64,000 bases of DNA from Blastococcus sp. CT_GayMR16 (GTDB lineage Bacteria; Actinomycetota; Actinomycetes; Mycobacteriales; Geodermatophilaceae): the NCBI RefSeq assembly GCF_004570875.1, contig NZ_SPQK01000017.1, positions 1 to 64,000 of the forward strand, in the 5' to 3' direction. Under the pieces are notes generated by a model. The model did no database searches. It had not been told where the DNA came from and saw only the letters and a program-made list of their open reading frames with translations. Shown one piece after another: positions 35,321 through 60,616 of this stretch (position 1 is the first letter of the stretch; every line of letters begins with the position of its first letter). Made by a program: the position numbers and the translations under genes.

Positions 35321-36142
35321 TCATCGGATCAGGGTGTCCTGGCCGAGCGAGGCCGCGAGCGATCCGTCGGCGGTGTGCACGGTGCCGCGCACGGTTCCCC
35401 GCTGATGACTGTTGGAGACCGACTCCAGGTTCAGCAGCGTCCACTCGTCCGCCCGCACGGGGCGGTGCCACCACAGGGCGTGGTCCAGGCTGGTCAGGAC
35501 GTTCGCCCGCCGGTACAGCCCGGCGGTCACCGACGAGGCGATCGTGACCCCGAGGTCGGAGGCGTACGCGATCGCACTGGCGTGCACCGCCGGGTCGTCG
35601 GGCAGCGGATCGGCGGCCCGGAACCACACCCGCCGGCTGAACTCCCGGGTGCCGTCGGGGCCCTCCGGAGCCGGCGGGAGCTCGCGCAGGTCGAACACCG
35701 AGAAGTAGTCGGACTCGGCGAGGTACGGCGACCAGGCGCCGGCGGGCTCCTCCGCGTCCGGCGCGGCGGGACGGGCCAGCTGGTACTCCACGCCCTCGGT
35801 GTCGGGCCCGGTGCGGTGGAAGGACACGGTCGCGGTGAAGACCCGGCGGCCGTCCTGGTCCGCGTCGACCTGCCGCAGGGTGAACGACCGGCCGTCCCGG
35901 ACGCGGGAGACGCGGTACTGCAGCGGCCGGCTCGGTAGGGCGACCGCCAGGAAGTGCGCGTGCATCGAATGGGGCGTTCGGTCGCCGTCCGTCGTCGCCA
36001 TGGCTGCGCTCGTCGCCTGCGCGAGCTGTTGGCCGCCGAAGACGAATGCCGAGTCCCACTCCGGATAGACCGCCGGGACGAACACGTCGTCCCCCCGGGA
36101 CTCCAGCGTGACCAGGTCGGTGAAGGTGTGGCGGTTGCTCAC
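35321..36142 (-). CDS. Acyl-CoA thioesterase (TesB-like double hotdog)
   Basis: 273 residues. The first hotdog carries PEWDSAFVFGGQQLAQATSAAMATT and HSMHAHFLAVALPSRPLQYRVSRVRDGRSFTLRQV, and the second ends with SLDHALWWHRPVRADEWTLLNLESVSNSHQRGTVRGTVHTADGSLAASLGQD split over strands; the Asp/Ser-Thr/Gln pattern of TesB is visible. It hydrolyses acyl-CoA to free acid and CoA. The GTG at 36142 overlaps the LLM gene stop as GTGA, so the pair is translationally coupled. It is just upstream of the EtfD-like gene, in line with a lipid-degradation role. Confidence 0.82.
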   Translation of the reverse strand: MSNRHTFTDLVTLESRGDDVFVPAVYPEWDSAFVFGGQQLAQATSAAMATTDGDRTPHSMHAHFLAVALPSRPLQYRVSRVRDGRSFTLRQVDADQDGRRVFTATVSFHRTGPDTEGVEYQLARPAAPDAEEPAGAWSPYLAESDYFSVFDLRELPPAPEGPDGTREFSRRVWFRAADPLPDDPAVHASAIAYASDLGVTIASSVTAGLYRRANVLTSLDHALWWHRPVRADEWTLLNLESVSNSHQRGTVRGTVHTADGSLAASLGQDTLIR

Positions 36143-37014
36143 GGCTGCGAGGAACTCGCGATCGTCTCCGCGGCGAAGGCGTCGATCCACCGGCGGGCCT
36201 CGTCGAGGGTGGACTCGGCGGTCAGCCCCGGGATGTGGGTGATCACGCGGGTGACCCCGGCCTGTTCCAGTGCCCCGAGGTCGCCGCCCTCGGGCGCGAG
36301 AGACGCGGTGATCTCGAACGGATGGTCGCCCAGGCCGGCCTCGCTCCGGGCCTTGGTGAGCCCGGCGATCCGCCCTGCGATCTCGTCGACGTCGCTGGAG
36401 CCCAGTTCCATCCACCCGTCACCCATGAGCGCCGCCCGGCGCAGGGCGGCCGGCGAGGTGCCGCCCAGCTCGATCGGGATGGACGGCTTCTGGATCGACT
36501 TGGGGCGGAAGTGCACGGGCCCGAAAGAGAAGTGCTGCCCCTCGTGCGTGATCGGGTCCTGGCCCGACCACAGCCGGCGCAGCAGCGGGATGATCTCGTC
36601 CATCCGGCTGCCGCGTTCGGCGAACGGGACGCCGGCCGCGTCGAACTCGTCCTTCAGCCAGCCGACCCCTGCACCGAGGGTGACGCGCCCGCCCGACAGC
36701 CGGTCGAGCGTGACGACCGAGCGGGCGGTCACCAGCGGGTGCCGCAGCGGGAGGACGTAGACGTTCGTGCCGAGCCGGAGGGTCGTCGTCGCGGTGGCGA
36801 TCCCCGCGAGCATCACGAACGCGTCGTACAGCGGGCTGTCCGGCGTGATGGGGGCGTTGCCGTCGGACGCGTACGGGTACGTGCTCGGCAGCGTCGCCGG
36901 CAGGACCAGGTGCTCCCCGAACCACACCGACTCGAAGCCGGCCGCCTCGACCTGCCGGGCCACGTCCGTGTACCAGCGGGGCCGCAGGCCCACCAGCGTC
37001 AGTCCGAACTTCAT
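36139..37014 (-). CDS. LLM class F420-dependent oxidoreductase
   Basis: 291 residues, beginning MKFGLTLVGLRPRWYTDVARQVEAAGFESVWFGEHL, followed by TLRLGTNVYVLPLRHPLVTARSVVTLDRLSGGRVTLGAGVGWLKDEFDAAGV, all typical of F420-dependent LLM enzymes (TIGR03619 style). The ATG at 37014 is preceded by GGAGAG directly upstream. It overlaps the thioesterase by GTGA, hinting at a joint role in acyl or xenobiotic turnover. Two similar imperfect inverted repeats lie 80-150 bp upstream. Confidence 0.86.
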   Translation of the reverse strand: MKFGLTLVGLRPRWYTDVARQVEAAGFESVWFGEHLVLPATLPSTYPYASDGNAPITPDSPLYDAFVMLAGIATATTTLRLGTNVYVLPLRHPLVTARSVVTLDRLSGGRVTLGAGVGWLKDEFDAAGVPFAERGSRMDEIIPLLRRLWSGQDPITHEGQHFSFGPVHFRPKSIQKPSIPIELGGTSPAALRRAALMGDGWMELGSSDVDEIAGRIAGLTKARSEAGLGDHPFEITASLAPEGGDLGALEQAGVTRVITHIPGLTAESTLDEARRWIDAFAAETIASSSQP

Positions 37015-37093
37015 CTCTCCGCCTTCGTCTGCCCAGGTCGTCGGGACACGCGGCGCTGCCGGAAGGCGGGGGCCGTGGACGCGTCGTCCCCGA

Positions 37094-37172
37094 TATCGAC
37101 AGGTGCTCGGTATCTCCCCGAGGAAAGCAGGCCGCGTCCGAGTTGTCGATAGGCATTCGATAACTGCGGACG
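37094..37172. promoter_or_regulatory. Two related inverted-repeat motifs upstream of the LLM gene
   Basis: ATCGACAGGTGCTCGGTATC (37094-37113) and GTCGATAGGCATTCGATAAC (37145-37164) share 13 of 20 positions and are 51 bp apart, close to five helical turns. The second lies inside a larger hairpin (37135-37172) with CGTCCG/CGGACG outer arms. They may be operators for the LLM-thioesterase transcript or part of the repeat-rich gap that follows. Confidence 0.38.
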
Positions 37173-37194
37173 CCGAACCGAATGTCGCCGTGTG

Positions 37195-37250
37195 GTGGCC
37201 AGGTCCGCGCTGCAGCGCGGCCTTGGCCACGACACCCCGGTACCGGGTCA
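37195..37250. repeat. Palindromic repeat, copy A
   Basis: A 36-bp palindrome (37195-37230) centred on CTGCAG, with 16 of 18 base pairs, followed 29 bp from its centre by CCCGGTACCGGG (37236-37247). The same two-part layout with the same 29-bp spacing is found at 38316-38375. Copy A reaches into the stop codon of the 37248-38246 gene. Confidence 0.68.
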
Positions 37251-38246
37251 GCTGACGCGGAGCACGCCTCGCTCCCGCGCGGTAGCGCTGTAGCGCCGTC
37301 CGGAGGGCCGTGGACGCGCCAGGAGACTGCGGAGGGGGTCCTCGACGCGCCTCCAGTTCGCTCCCAGGTCTGCCTCCGCGATCCGCACGACACCGATGTC
37401 CAGAGCCCGGAGTTCGTCCTCGCGGCGCTTCTCGTCCCACAGCACCTGCTCGGGCGAGCGACCGCGCCAGGGGTCGGTGTACTTGACCCGGCCGTCGAAC
37501 TCCACCGCGACCGCCGCCTCGTCGAACCAGGCATCGACGACGGCGATCAGTCGGCCGCCCACTCTGATCTCGACCTGGAGCTCGGGTGAGGGCAGTCCCG
37601 AGCCCACGATCCGCAGCCTGCCGCGCGTCTCCAGGGGCGACTCGGCACGGCCGTCGGTGAGCGAGAGTGCCCGCTCGGCCTGGCGCCCCCCGGGCCACCG
37701 ACGGGACCGGGCGGCCGCGTCCAGGAGTTCCGCGGGCGTCACCTTCCCGGTGAGCACGCCGGCATCCATCGCGACGACGGCGTCCTCCAGTGGCCAGTCG
37801 CGGGCGCAGTCGATGAGGGTGCGGGCCGCCGTGGTGAACCGGAGCGCACCCCGGGTGCCGATCTCGTCGGGACCGAGCGGTGCGCGGGTCACGAGGAACC
37901 CGCTGCCGCGACGCCCGTGCGCCGGGTCGGTGAGCCGGACGTCGGAAGCCTGCTGTCGCCGAAGCGGGACGCCCCACAGGCGGGCGGCCGAGAGGTGGCT
38001 GATCGCCGCCGTCGGCCGGTCGAGGGCAAGGAGCACCGCCAGGCACTCGAGCCGGTGCCGCCGGCTGCCGGTGTCGGCGCGGGCGAGCTCGTCGGCCGTG
38101 ACGTAGATGCCGCGCCGGAGTCGGTGCCAGCGACCCGACGCGCAGAGGTGGCGGATCTCAGGGTGCCCGTACCCGGCCCGGCGCGCATCGACCGCGGTGA
38201 AGACGCCGTACTGGCGTTCGGCGACGGCGCGCAGGAGGGGATGCAC
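37248..38246 (-). CDS. AbiEi-type N-terminal domain plus DUF559/Vsr-like nuclease-fold protein
   Basis: 332 residues from a GTG at 38246. The N-terminal 60 residues (AERQYGVFTAVDARRAGYGHPEIRHLCASGRWHRLRRGIYV) are the winged-helix of type IV toxin-antitoxin AbiEi antitoxins. The C-terminal 120 look like a DUF559/very-short-patch-repair nuclease fold: ESPLETRGRLRIV, VVDAWFDEAAVAVEFDGRVKYTD and ELRALDIGVVRI, giving candidate catalytic Glu, Asp and E-x-(D/K). No AbiEii toxin partner is adjacent. Such single genes are very common and multicopy in actinobacteria; function is unknown. The gene is bracketed by two copies of a palindromic repeat. Confidence 0.78.
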   Translation of the reverse strand: MHPLLRAVAERQYGVFTAVDARRAGYGHPEIRHLCASGRWHRLRRGIYVTADELARADTGSRRHRLECLAVLLALDRPTAAISHLSAARLWGVPLRRQQASDVRLTDPAHGRRGSGFLVTRAPLGPDEIGTRGALRFTTAARTLIDCARDWPLEDAVVAMDAGVLTGKVTPAELLDAAARSRRWPGGRQAERALSLTDGRAESPLETRGRLRIVGSGLPSPELQVEIRVGGRLIAVVDAWFDEAAVAVEFDGRVKYTDPWRGRSPEQVLWDEKRREDELRALDIGVVRIAEADLGANWRRVEDPLRSLLARPRPSGRRYSATARERGVLRVS

Positions 38247-38315
38247 CCGTGGAGTCTGCGATCTTGCGCGTCGTGGCGGCGGGTGCCTGTGGACGACGCC
38301 GCCAGGGCCGCGCTG

Positions 38316-38375
38316 TGGTTGCGAGGACCGCGCTGCAGCGCGGTCCCGGCGACTGCACCGCGGTACCGAGGTCAC
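38316..38375. repeat. Palindromic repeat, copy B
   Basis: A perfect 22-bp palindrome (38325-38346) centred on CTGCAG, followed 29 bp from its centre by CGGTACCG (38361-38368). Alignment with copy A covers about 60 bp in the same orientation, 1,123 bp away. It lies 70-130 bp before the start of the AbiEi-like gene and upstream of the dnaK promoter. Confidence 0.68.
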
Positions 38376-38450
38376 GGAGATCGACCCACAGGAAATTGGT
38401 CGGGACCCGGGAACACGGCCCGGATGCCTGCCGTTATCGTGGGCAGGAAA

Positions 38451-38471
38451 GTTGAGCGGACCACGCGCAAG
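38451..38471 (+). promoter_or_regulatory. HAIR (HspR operator) upstream of dnaK
   Basis: GTTGAGC-N7-GCGCAAG compares with the HAIR consensus CTTGAGT-N7-ACTCAAG: 5 of 7 in each half with exact 7-bp spacing. It lies 66-86 bp before the dnaK start. HspR, encoded as the fourth gene of the operon, would bind here as autorepressor. Confidence 0.66.
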
Positions 38472-38536
38472 ATGGTGAGAGCCCTCAGCTCCTGGACCAA
38501 GCACCACCCCAGCACCCGGAAAGAGAGGCCATCCCC

Positions 38537-40399
38537 ATGGCTCGAGCGGTCGGAATCGACCTCGGCACCACCAACTCCGTCGTCACCGTCCTGGAGGGCG
38601 GCGAGCCGACGGTCATCGCGAACTCCGAGGGCTCGCGCACGACGCCGTCGGTCGTGGCCTTCGCCAAGAACGGCGAGGTCCTCGTCGGCCAGTCGGCCAA
38701 GAACCAGGCGGTCACCAACGTCGACCGCACCATCCGCTCCGTGAAGCGGCACATGGGCACGACGTGGAGCACGGATGAGATCGACGGCAAGAAGTACACG
38801 CCGCAGGAGATCTCCGCGCGCATCCTGCAGAAGCTGAAGCGGGACGCCGAGACCTACCTGGGCGAGCCGGTCACCGACGCCGTCATCACCGTCCCCGCCT
38901 ACTTCGAGGACGCCCAGCGCCAGGCCACCAAGGAGGCCGGTGAGATCGCGGGCCTCAACGTCCTGCGCATCGTCAACGAGCCGACCGCGGCCGCACTGGC
39001 CTACGGCCTGGACAAGGGTGAGACCGAGCAGACGATCCTCGTCTTCGACCTCGGCGGCGGCACCTTCGACGTCTCCCTGCTCGAGATCGGGGACGGCGTC
39101 ATCGAGGTCAAGGCCACCGCCGGCGACAACCACCTCGGTGGTGACGACTGGGACGAGAAGGTCATGACCCACCTGGTCAAGACCTTCAACGCGTCCAACG
39201 GCATCGACCTGTCCAAGGACAAGCTGGCCATGCAGCGCCTCCGCGAGGCCGCTGAGAAGGCCAAGATCGAGCTCTCCGGCGCCCAGTCGACCAACATCAA
39301 CCTGCCGTACATCACGGCCGGTGCCGACGGCCCGCTGCACCTCGACGTCACGATCACGCGTGCGGAGTTCCAGCGGCTCACGCAGGACCTGCTCGACCGG
39401 GCCCGCGCGCCGTTCAACCAGGCGATCCGGGACGCCGGCATCTCCGTCGGCGAGATCGACCACGTCGTCCTCGTCGGTGGCTCCACGCGCATGCCGGCCG
39501 TGTCCGACCTGGTGCGTGAGCTGACCGGCGGCAAGGAGCCCAACAAGGGCGTCAACCCGGACGAGGTCGTGGCCATCGGTGCCGCGCTGCAGGCCGGTGT
39601 CCTCCGCGGTGAGGTCAAGGACGTCCTGCTCCTCGACGTCACCCCGCTGTCCCTGGGCATCGAGACCAAGGGCGGAATCATGACCAAGCTCATCGAGCGC
39701 AACACCACGATCCCGACGAAGCGCTCCGAGATCTTCACGACGGCCGACGACAACCAGCCGTCCGTGCAGATCCAGGTCTTCCAGGGCGAGCGCGAGATGG
39801 CGGCCTACAACAAGAAGCTCGGCATGTTCGAGCTGACCGGTCTGCCCCCGGCGCCCCGCGGCGTCCCGCAGATCGAGGTGGCCTTCGACATCGACGCCAA
39901 CGGCATCGTCCACGTCCACGCCAAGGACCTCGGCACGGGCAAGGAGCAGTCGATGACCATCACCGGCGGCTCGGCCCTCCCGAAGGACGACATCGAGCGG
40001 ATGATGAAGGACGCCGAGGCGCACGCGGACGAGGACAAGAAGCGCCGCGAGGAGGCCGAGACCCGCAACCTGGCCGAGTCGCTGCAGTACCAGACCGAGA
40101 AGTTCCTGGCCGAGAACGGCGAGAAGATCCCGGCCGAGAAGAAGGACGAGCTCGGCGAGGCGCTGACCGACCTGCGCAGCGCCCTCGGCGGATCCGACAT
40201 CGCCGCGATCAAGGCCGCGCAGGAGAAGGTGGCCCGCGTGTCCCAGGAGGTCGGCGGCGCGCTCTACGCGCAGCAGGCCGAGGCGGCCGGCTCTCCCTCG
40301 GGCGACGCCGGTGACGGCCCGGCGGCGGAGGGCTCGTCGAGCTCCGACGACGACGTCGTCGACGCCGAGATCGTGGACGAGGACACCGACAAGAAGTGA
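38537..40399 (+). CDS. dnaK: Chaperone DnaK (Hsp70)
   Basis: 620 residues. The ATPase domain begins [22 protein letters not shown] and contains [30 protein letters not shown] and [12 protein letters not shown]; the substrate domain begins after [14 protein letters not shown]; a helical lid and a Gly/Ser/Asp-rich tail ending [10 protein letters not shown] follow. It folds and protects proteins with DnaJ and GrpE. First gene of dnaK-grpE-dnaJ-hspR; a HAIR element upstream predicts HspR control. Codon usage is strongly biased to C-ending codons, as for a highly expressed gene. Confidence 0.97.
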
Positions 40400-59410: not shown

Positions 59411-59412
59411 CA

Positions 59413-59527
59413 TCGAAACCTGTGGGGTGCAGGAAGTGCGGAGGCGCCTGTGATCCGCCGCAGGAAGTCCCGTCGGCCGTGGGGTCGGCGGGATTCTCTG
59501 CACCCGATCTACATGTGCTCGTTTCGA
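59413..59527. repeat. Nested palindromic structure after the DUF3151 gene
   Basis: Concentric arms TCGAAAC (59413-59419)/GTTTCGA (59521-59527) and GGGTGCAG (59425-59432)/CTGCACCC (59498-59505) surround a further imperfect hairpin (about 59464-59496, GAAGTCCCGTCGGCC with GGTCGGCGGGATTC). The total is 115 bp. Possible repeat element, terminator or structured RNA. Confidence 0.52.
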
Positions 59528-59598
59528 ACGCCGCCGGGGTGATCATTAACAACGGTGCATGGCGCCGTCCGGGCGCCCGCACGGTTGGAAGTGCCGTC

Positions 59599-59742
59599 AT
59601 GGTCACGCTGCTGTGGATCCTTGCCGTAGTCCTGGTGATCGCGGGCATCTTCGCGATCTTCCGCGGACAGATGCTCTGGGGGATCGTGCTCATCATCGTG
59701 GGTCTGCTCGTCGGCCCGGGAGGCGTGAGCGTCTTCAACTGA
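59599..59742 (+). CDS. GPGG-motif small membrane protein
   Basis: 47 residues: MVTLLWILAVVLVIAGIFAIF, RGQMLWGIVLIIVGLLV, then GPGGVSVFN. Two short membrane helices and the C-terminal GPGG match a conserved actinobacterial small protein family of unknown function. GGAAG precedes the ATG. A likely minus-10 (TCATTAAC region) lies about 50 bp upstream. It ends just before a strong hairpin. Confidence 0.74.
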   Translation: MVTLLWILAVVLVIAGIFAIFRGQMLWGIVLIIVGLLVGPGGVSVFN

Positions 59743-59746
59743 GTGG

Positions 59747-59792
59747 CCGCCCGGGACGGCGCACCGCTCGCGCGGTGCGCTCCCCCGGGCGG
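59747..59792. terminator. Bidirectional double-stem terminator
   Basis: Outer 9-bp stem CCGCCCGGG/CCCGGGCGG and inner 8-bp stem CGCACCGC/GCGGTGCG with a TCGC loop. It lies between convergent genes, 4 bp after the GPGG stop and 5 bp from the ABC ATPase stop. Confidence 0.74.
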
Positions 59793-59797
59793 AGCCG

Positions 59798-60616
59798 TCA
59801 GCGCTCGCCCAGCTCCGAGTGCAGGTCCGTCAGTGCCGAGGTCAGGGCGCTGAACTCCTCCCCGCCGGCCATCAGCCGCATCAGGTCCGAGGCGTCGACG
59901 TCCTCCCTGGTGAGCTTGCCGGCCACCTGGCCGTGAGCCAGGAGCAGGAAGCGGTCACCCACGAGGTGGGCGTAGCGCGGATTGTTCGTCACGAGCAGTA
60001 CCGCCAGGCCCTGGCTGCGGGCCGCCACGATCGCCTGCAGCAGCAGCGTCTGCTGCCCGACGGTCAGGGGCGCCGTCGGCTCGTCGACGACCAGCGCGCG
60101 GACGCCGAAGTGCCGCGCGCGGGCGATCGCCAGGCTCTGCCGGGCGCCGGCCTGCAGCGTGCTCGCCGGCTGGTCGGGATCGAGCCCGGTCACCCCGACC
60201 CGGGCCATCGCCTGGACCGTGATCTCCCGGGCGCGGTCGACGTCGAGCCGCCGCAGCGGCCACACCCCGCGAGTGGGCTCGGCGCCGAGGAAGAAGTTCC
60301 GCCAGATCGACAGCAGCGGGGCGACGGCGAGGTCCTGCCAGACGGTGGCGATCCCGGCCGCCCGGGCCTGTTGTGGGGACCGGAAGTGGACCGGCTCCCC
60401 GGTCATCAGCAGCTGGCCCTCGTCGTGCCGGCGCAGCCCGGAGAGTACGGCCACGAGCGTGGACTTCCCCGAGCCGTTCTCCCCGAGCACGCAGGTGATC
60501 TGGCCGGCCGGCACGGTGGCGCTGACCCGGGACAGCGCGTGCACGCTGCCGTAGCGGACGCTCAGTCGCTGGAGCTCGAGGGCCGGTACGGCGGACTGCT
60601 CGACGGGCCCCGTCAT
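59798..60616 (-). CDS. Sugar-type ABC transporter ATP-binding protein with degenerate motifs
   Basis: 272 residues, single ABC domain of the FrcA/RbsA kind. Walker A GENGSGKST and Walker B ALVVDEPT are intact. The signature LSGGQ is replaced by LQAGARQ, and the switch His is replaced by Asn (LLVTNNPRYAHL where THNPHHAY is usual in FrcA as remembered). The D-loop is also unusual (APLTVGQ). It may hydrolyse ATP weakly or work with a partner. The ATG at 60616 overlaps the permease stop (ATGA). No substrate-binding protein gene is nearby. Confidence 0.82.
   Translation of the reverse strand: MTGPVEQSAVPALELQRLSVRYGSVHALSRVSATVPAGQITCVLGENGSGKSTLVAVLSGLRRHDEGQLLMTGEPVHFRSPQQARAAGIATVWQDLAVAPLLSIWRNFFLGAEPTRGVWPLRRLDVDRAREITVQAMARVGVTGLDPDQPASTLQAGARQSLAIARARHFGVRALVVDEPTAPLTVGQQTLLLQAIVAARSQGLAVLLVTNNPRYAHLVGDRFLLLAHGQVAGKLTREDVDASDLMRLMAGGEEFSALTSALTDLHSELGER

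Follow-up and report, generated by a model that had tools for sequence, protein, structure and literature searches.

The window analyzed here, a stretch of 64,000 nucleotides from Blastococcus sp. CT_GayMR16, lies on contig C8 of a 4.5-Mb genome in 47 contigs. A minus-strand gene for a 332-residue protein, P0001, lies between a luciferase-like monooxygenase gene and dnaK and is bracketed by two long palindromes; thioesterase and dnaJ genes lie further out. The features are as follows.

36139..37014, minus strand: luciferase-like monooxygenase gene, the other neighbor (context), which adjoins dnaK without an AbiEi gene in genome G014.
37185..37240, no strand assigned: 56-bp core of copy A, the downstream palindrome (covariance-model match 37180-37244), from repeat search, covariance model and family pairing.
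37248..38246, minus strand: gene for the 332-aa AbiEi-nuclease fusion P0001, stop included, from translation, Pfam AbiEi_4, PADLOC AbiEi and a model with pLDDT 92.7.
37305..37640, minus strand: residues 203-314, predicted Vsr/EDxHD nuclease-like domain (3r3p Z 10.5, 3hrl Z 9.8, 1cw0 Z 9.5; alignment A5).
37653..38246, minus strand: residues 1-198, predicted AbiEi-antitoxin-like winged-helix plus middle domain (6y8q Z 11.9, 1zel Z 9.7; palindrome co-variation strongest at residues 61-200).
38308..38363, no strand assigned: 56-bp core of copy B, the upstream palindrome (covariance-model match 38303-38367), from repeat search and covariance model.
38537..40399, plus strand: dnaK, the divergent neighbor marking a conserved slot (context), from profile match and synteny.

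Upstream of dnaK, at 38452-38471, the window also carries TTGAGCGGACCACGCGCAAG, which we take to resemble the HspR-binding HAIR motif.

P0001 matched AbiEi_4 in Pfam (E 5.2e-11) and, over its N-terminal part, AbiEi in PADLOC (2.3e-26), and had no match in NCBIfam or, by sequence, in the PDB. By protein, the nearest named relatives belong to Blastococcus (Geodermatophilaceae). In the AlphaFold model, built with the 42 sequences of A5, residues 1-198 resemble AbiEi of Streptococcus agalactiae (Z 11.9, Foldseek E 3.9e-6). Residues 203-314 resemble I-Bth0305I (3r3p; Z 10.5, but E 0.1 by Foldseek alone), NGO0050 (Z 9.8), and Vsr (Z 9.5); as modeled, the C-terminal domain of P0001 has the Vsr/EDxHD fold. 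E206, D238, D251, G252, and K255 are invariant across the 42 sequences, and E249 is nearly so; L261/L265 lack E249. K255 presumably lies near the position of the usual Vsr/DUF559 histidine, which is apparently replaced by lysine in the P0001 family. The first-pass annotation had called the gene AbiEi/nuclease-like; the AbiEi_4 match and the predicted fold bear this out, whereas no DUF559 sequence match was found in P0001. Among 31 relatives, AbiEi_4 matched in 29 and DUF559 in 1. With I-Bth0305I, Vsr, and DUF559, P0001 shares the predicted C-terminal fold and the conserved acidic residues; it differs from them in being encoded by a free-standing gene between palindromes rather than within an intron, in its AbiEi module, and in the apparent lysine.

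A de novo repeat search recovered the two palindromes as family D1 (82 nt, 74% identity), with two directly repeated copies separated by 1,123 bp, just as the first-pass annotation had described them. The palindrome lengths that it gave (22 bp perfect in copy B, 36 bp with two mismatches in copy A) and its placement of one copy upstream of the gene also hold, with 61 bp between the near edge of copy B and the GTG start codon (38246). Two details changed. Each copy had been read as a two-part repeat composed of a CTGCAG and a GGTACC palindrome, but each is a single imperfect palindrome centered on CTGCAG; separate elements were rejected, as GGTACC lies over the right, outer edge of this palindrome and is unconserved in alignment A1 (14 sequences). 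Copy A had been placed across the stop codon (37248-37250, minus strand), but its core ends 7 bp from it.

When the whole genome was searched by BLAST with a 74-base query from copy B, copy A (E-value 1.1e-9) and one further copy on contig C22 (1.6e-7) were recovered; the similarity among the three is not due to chance. The covariance model R1, derived from the 14 gap-free elements of A1, gave E-values of 5.5e-8 (A), 1.4e-8 (B), and 2.4e-9 (C22). Because all three are within the 14 training sequences of R1, a fair test is given by BLAST instead. The C22 copy lies between two convergent genes (nudix-like and Crp-like, as judged by eye), and there is no AbiEi-nuclease gene there. No Rfam family matched positions 36500-39000 at the gathering threshold, and a known RNA family was rejected on this basis. 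Treated as a 30-pair structure, A1 has 77.9% of its cells paired and 46 cells that change on both sides (in both cases 0/500 shuffles were as high); its double-change pairs (282/500 as high) and pair types (307/500) were not above shuffles.

Copies of this type occur across the family. With copy B as the query, 15 of the 61 genomes searched gave matches, its own among them, and R1 matched in 48 of 112 genomes of the family, the richest having 22 strand-matches (about 11 elements); palindrome pairs approximately 1.12-1.15 kb apart were seen repeatedly. In its own genome, R1 gave 18 strand-matches at E <= 10, and the eight at E <= 0.01 represent five elements, three of which are R1 training sequences. 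With gene-linked copies counted, this genome holds three strong and two weak elements of the R1 type, a number far from the hundreds of random sites that the first-pass annotation had named as counting against its reading, and a high-copy random REP was rejected for the R1 type in this genome. Sixty stretches were taken from among the R1 matches listed. Of the palindrome loci fetched, 9/61 hold a homolog of the gene and 52/61 none (E 1e-3), which makes solo copies the more frequent class in the fetched set. The solo copies are dispersed between genes: 52 of 57 lie outside called genes, with 28 in codirectional, 20 in convergent, and 4 in divergent gaps and 5 inside a called ORF (hand-sorted). 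These orientation counts are rough, because the GC3-based gene caller overlooked real genes (AbiEi genes in part and the Crp gene).

Similarity of solo to gene-linked copies is higher within a genome (0.679) than between genomes (0.589; 0/2000 permutations; 57 solo and 32 linked copies), in a set found by one model and possibly biased to alike copies. In G101, there was no within-genome gain (0.587 both ways), and the solo copies of G015 appear unlike its linked pair. We designated the clade of homologs holding P0001 as the P clade. Among the 112 genomes, an R1-type palindrome and a P-clade gene occurred together in 34, the palindrome without the gene in 14, the gene without the palindrome in 9, and neither in 55 (Fisher p 9.8e-10, with gene-linked copies counted, phylogeny ignored, and the gene list made by hand with three partial matches). 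Another dispersed repeat of about 100 bp, of the CGGCCCGAGTGGGGCCC... type, has dozens of matches in these genomes and shares its intergenic slots with the palindromes (at L031:4780-4970 on G000:C22 and at many further loci); it is sometimes tandem, with three copies in G015 (by eye).

Bracketing recurs among the homologous genes. At 30 P-clade loci, including some training loci, R1 matched on both sides in 20, on one side in 6, and on neither in 4 (E <= 0.5). Absence of the element from all gene-carrying relatives, which the first-pass annotation had named as refuting its proposal, did not occur. Several P-clade loci not bracketed by R1 carry other palindromes. Without any model, many homologs of lower identity are also bracketed, by palindromes that differ clade by clade. 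The 188 loci given to this count reduced to 141 distinct genes, of which 137 had enough flanking sequence. A palindrome of at least 19/28 pairs was present upstream in 51%, downstream in 53%, and on both sides in 36% of the 137 genes; for 890 control windows the figure was 1.1%, and for windows within the genes 2.2%. The centers of the strong palindromes have medians of -112 upstream and +41 downstream. Two palindromes of at least 17/28 pairs flank 82 of the 137 genes, and 55 are without such a pair. Thirty loci in other families belonging to the order were also scored, with gene ends of distant homologs estimated from profile coordinates; a score of at least 16 was reached upstream in 12 and downstream in 8 (2.2% of 400 controls). 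Several of these pairs are near-identical (L290, L298, and L300); L287, L297, and L309, among others, have background scores on both sides.

The element on each gene side is one imperfect palindrome of 56-62 bp. When the inner and outer parts of each arm were compared in 143 elements, direct matches showed a single strong maximum at a shift of 20 bp (0.572); the remaining 20 offsets gave 0.17-0.42, the next best being 0.416 at 17 and the rest 0.17-0.37. The element is therefore described as four half-sites in a 20+16+20 layout. All four half-sites fit in copy B, with the CCGCG(G/C) type and outer and inner sites 20 bp apart, and the outer half-sites of copy A are decayed. In 54 non-P cassettes, TGATC is found at the distal tip of 23 upstream and 29 downstream palindromes and at the proximal end of only 2 and 4, indicating that in these clades the palindromes are brackets with outward-facing termini. 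The two palindromes of a pair match better in direct register in 19/28 P-clade genes, with little difference in identity, and in inverted register in 19/26 and 17/28 genes of the other clades.

That the palindromes are simply bidirectional terminators or roadblocks, insulating the gene and unrelated to protein binding, seems very improbable. Neither four half-sites 20 bp apart nor matched sides nor the co-variation with the AbiEi part described below is needed for such a role, Rfam gave nothing in 36500-39000, and in a slot of G033 the solo copy already has a terminator-like hairpin next to it (by eye); the stable stems and their frequent location between convergent genes or just past stops are what terminators would also show.

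The gene is mostly inherited in place. In the P clade, it is kept beside dnaK, often with an Fe-S oxidoreductase gene (named by eye) as its other neighbor. The 105 genes whose neighborhoods were counted fall into just 15 neighborhoods, 56 of them in the dnaK slot, and gene movement is therefore rare. The first-pass annotation had suggested that the gene plus one repeat forms a cassette; free hopping of such a cassette is not supported, given inheritance mostly at fixed sites, 56/105 in one neighborhood. On the tree, which used 108 of the 141 genes, the dnaK-slot label changes at least five times on supported branches. At eleven loci (L238, L239, L240, L242, L244, L246, L254, and four others), the dnaK slot is occupied by a second AbiEi-nuclease clade, which is oriented the other way and has its own palindrome type. 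In G068, G080, G069, and G061, solo copies of this second clade have an additional GATCAGGTGACCTGATC-type palindrome at one of their tips, which may be a preferred target or the place where two element ends join. Decay of the dnaK-slot gene is visible as a frame break, a short remnant, and gene absence (L276/G008, L272/G004, and L282/G014).

A reading in which an AbiEi-guided nuclease serves defense by cutting invading DNA, with the palindromes as self-marks, decoys, or storage sites that restrain the protein, appears unlikely. It would account for the PADLOC AbiEi call on the N-terminal part and for a nuclease fold related to Vsr. It fits less well with the P-clade gene in a single housekeeping slot, with scanned neighbors (monooxygenase, dnaK, thioesterase, and dnaJ) that include no toxin partner, and with solo copies that have no obvious role in it.

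Solo copies vary between species more than the gene does. In G014, the monooxygenase gene adjoins dnaK, the gene is absent, and one palindrome-like scar remains (by eye); the intergenic flanks have diverged, and their alignment to the window is unreliable mid-way. The C22 slot was compared by eye in twelve other species: a different palindrome type is present in G015 and G013, the type of the other clade in G009 and G012, and none in eight (in G011, a gene is inserted instead). For the C24 slot of G033, both anchors were present at 15 of 21 loci, and 14 other genomes were compared. G074, whose flanking genes are 96% identical and alignable, is without the solo copy of G033; by eye, G070 and G072 have an unrelated repeat, seven have the type of the other clade, G064 and G077 have the R1 type, G073 has two palindromes, and G062 is ambiguous. 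The gene-less sites that the first-pass annotation had wished to see compared thus include one that lacks the gene and keeps a palindrome-like scar; no target-site duplication or exact empty site was recognized at the three slots, the intergenic ends having diverged, and the slot comparisons do not prove the polarity (gain or loss) of empty sites. Elsewhere in the window, the gap at positions 59411-59948 contains no AbiEi-nuclease gene, and another AbiEi-nuclease cassette is present at the matching place in G035 (both flanks matched) and probably in G113 (one flank).

The guess of a REP/MITE-like element is strengthened by solo copies, 52/57 of them outside called genes, and by slots that vary between species. 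Like MITEs and TIRtrons, the copies are short, non-coding, and palindromic and may depend on an enzyme encoded elsewhere. They differ in that a single palindrome makes up the entire element, in that the gene between them does not encode a transposase, and in that no target-site duplication was recognized.

The two palindromes of a gene on average resemble each other more than they resemble their counterparts in other genomes. This comparison covered 82 of the 137 genes, in three clades of 28, 26, and 28 genes, in which identity between the upstream and downstream palindromes of one gene was 0.649, 0.742, and 0.800 and identity between counterparts in different genomes was 0.51-0.52, 0.54, and 0.43-0.44. 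Within-pair likeness is seen though 44 of 48 P-clade genes occupy a single slot. Among all downstream palindromes, the best match is the gene's own in only 11/28, 14/26, and 24/28 genes. The average identities point to concerted evolution of the two flanking copies.

Palindrome similarity was compared with protein similarity for 26 P-clade genes. For residues 61-200, r was 0.59 (0/500 permutations) with a partial correlation of 0.48, and for residues 1-60, r was 0.47 (0/500 permutations) with a partial correlation of 0.29; for the nuclease, r was 0.18 (31/500 permutations) and the partial correlation 0.01. The middle part also led in two further sets, of 26 and 71 genes, with r values of 0.51 and 0.65 and partial correlations of 0.31 and 0.51. 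The nuclease in these sets correlates before correction only (r 0.39 and 0.43; partial 0.04 and -0.09), and the wHTH part, which likewise loses its correlation on correction, is almost without partial signal (0.01 and 0.06). Across the sets, the signal is therefore firmest for the AbiEi middle domain. The first-pass annotation had raised the possibility that the repeats are the recognition target of the protein itself, and the co-variation with the AbiEi part, together with the concert of the flanking copies, supports it. The best-supported step of our interpretation is that the AbiEi module recognizes the palindromes, a well-supported inference.

Known AbiEi proteins provide a precedent of similar scale. 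According to the cited parts of two reports (PMC3985639, PMC7319586), the AbiEi promoter contains a pair of 23-bp inverted repeats, separated by 3 bp, to which AbiEi itself binds, and Rv2827c recognizes two repeat pairs whose gaps are 13 bp; the 23-bp repeats are close in scale to one arm of our palindromes and the repeat pairs are near the 56-bp element in size. The AbiE type IV toxin-antitoxin system (AbiEi, Rv2827c) shares with the present unit the AbiEi fold predicted in residues 1-198 (Z 11.9) and an operator-like inverted repeat upstream. The unit differs in its added nuclease domain, the second palindrome downstream, and the solo copies elsewhere. An AbiEii nucleotidyltransferase toxin gene was not found adjacent in the window, where the neighbors are the luciferase-like monooxygenase gene and dnaK.

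The main rival to our interpretation is an autoregulator with copied operators: the upstream copy would repress the gene, the downstream and solo copies would be regulatory, insulating, or decoy sites matched to one another through the specificity of the protein, and nothing would be mobilized. We consider this unlikely, while giving it more weight than defense or termination. A copy at about -110 is where an operator is expected, its size is near that of the AbiEi/Rv2827c operators in the cited parts of PMC3985639 and PMC7319586, and a plain repressor would also show co-variation in the AbiEi part. Autoregulation accounts less readily for a copy just past the stop that is as frequent as the upstream copy, for the rarity of solo copies in divergent (promoter) gaps (4/57 with a crude caller), for their variation between species at one slot, and for the retention of a nuclease fold with conserved acidic residues.

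The underlying logic matches that of the REP/RAYT system. In the cited parts of PMC2817692 and PMC6006769, there is one gene per palindrome type, flanked by palindromes, with dispersed extragenic solo copies; gene and palindrome co-evolve, and the gene is mostly vertically inherited. The present unit resembles these REPtrons in the gene between palindromes, the solo copies, the co-evolution, and the mostly vertical gene, as far as the cited parts of PMC2817692, PMC3733652, and PMC6006769 describe them. It differs in its enzyme, an AbiEi plus Vsr/EDxHD protein rather than an HUH/Y1 tyrosine transposase, and in its palindrome, 56-62 bp with four half-sites rather than a short, GTAG-headed REP. 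In orientation, REPtron genes having inverted flanking palindromes, the picture here is mixed: mostly inverted pairs in the other clades and mostly direct ones in the P clade. Y1_Tnp (PF01797) was found in 0 of 14 genomes and in 5 of 14 control genomes; dispersal of the palindromes as REPs driven by a RAYT was rejected on this absence, and the unit is therefore not a member of the REP/RAYT REPtrons. The hosts of the present unit are Actinomycetota, for which that transposase superfamily is reported only as IS200-like subclass 1.1 in the cited part of PMC6006769. Our search of open-access full-text literature returned no report of palindrome-bracketed AbiEi/DUF559 genes.

We propose that the locus is a REPtron-like unit built on an AbiEi-nuclease, whose product recognizes the bracketing palindromes, with additional solo copies of these palindromes dispersed in the genome, and we regard this as probable. 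The bracketing and its recurrence, the concert within pairs, the co-variation with the AbiEi part, and the solo copies with their differences between species can be read from the sequences compared; DNA binding and cleavage by P0001, and dispersal driven by cleavage, are steps that we infer. The AbiEi-type module of the product would recognize the long palindromes, probably with one protein molecule per arm, as AbiEi antitoxins do on 23-bp repeats, and the half-site spacing of 20 bp would correspond to about two helical turns. The bound protein would position the Vsr/EDxHD nuclease domain on the DNA. Cutting in or close to a palindrome and repair templated by a different copy would spread the palindromes and keep them homogeneous, and the gene itself would mostly be inherited in place. 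Nuclease cutting with repair copying is a likely but unproven engine of this spread.

More tentatively, and with less confidence than for the unit itself, these genes may represent a new class of mobile element, in which an AbiEi-guided Vsr/EDxHD nuclease spreads palindromes; this would in effect be a homing system with one palindrome as both target and cargo, of an origin independent of RAYT/REP and widespread in Actinomycetota. Lone AbiEi antitoxin and DUF559 annotations are common in actinobacteria, without an assigned role. If such a palindrome-spreading class exists, it would explain many of the toxin-less AbiEi/DUF559-type genes in Actinomycetota, and lone AbiEi/DUF559 genes would gain a role as enzymes of palindrome spreading. 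It would also be a source of palindromic intergenic repeats where REP-associated transposases are reported missing, and it would offer many natural protein-target pairs for reading the DNA specificity of AbiEi.
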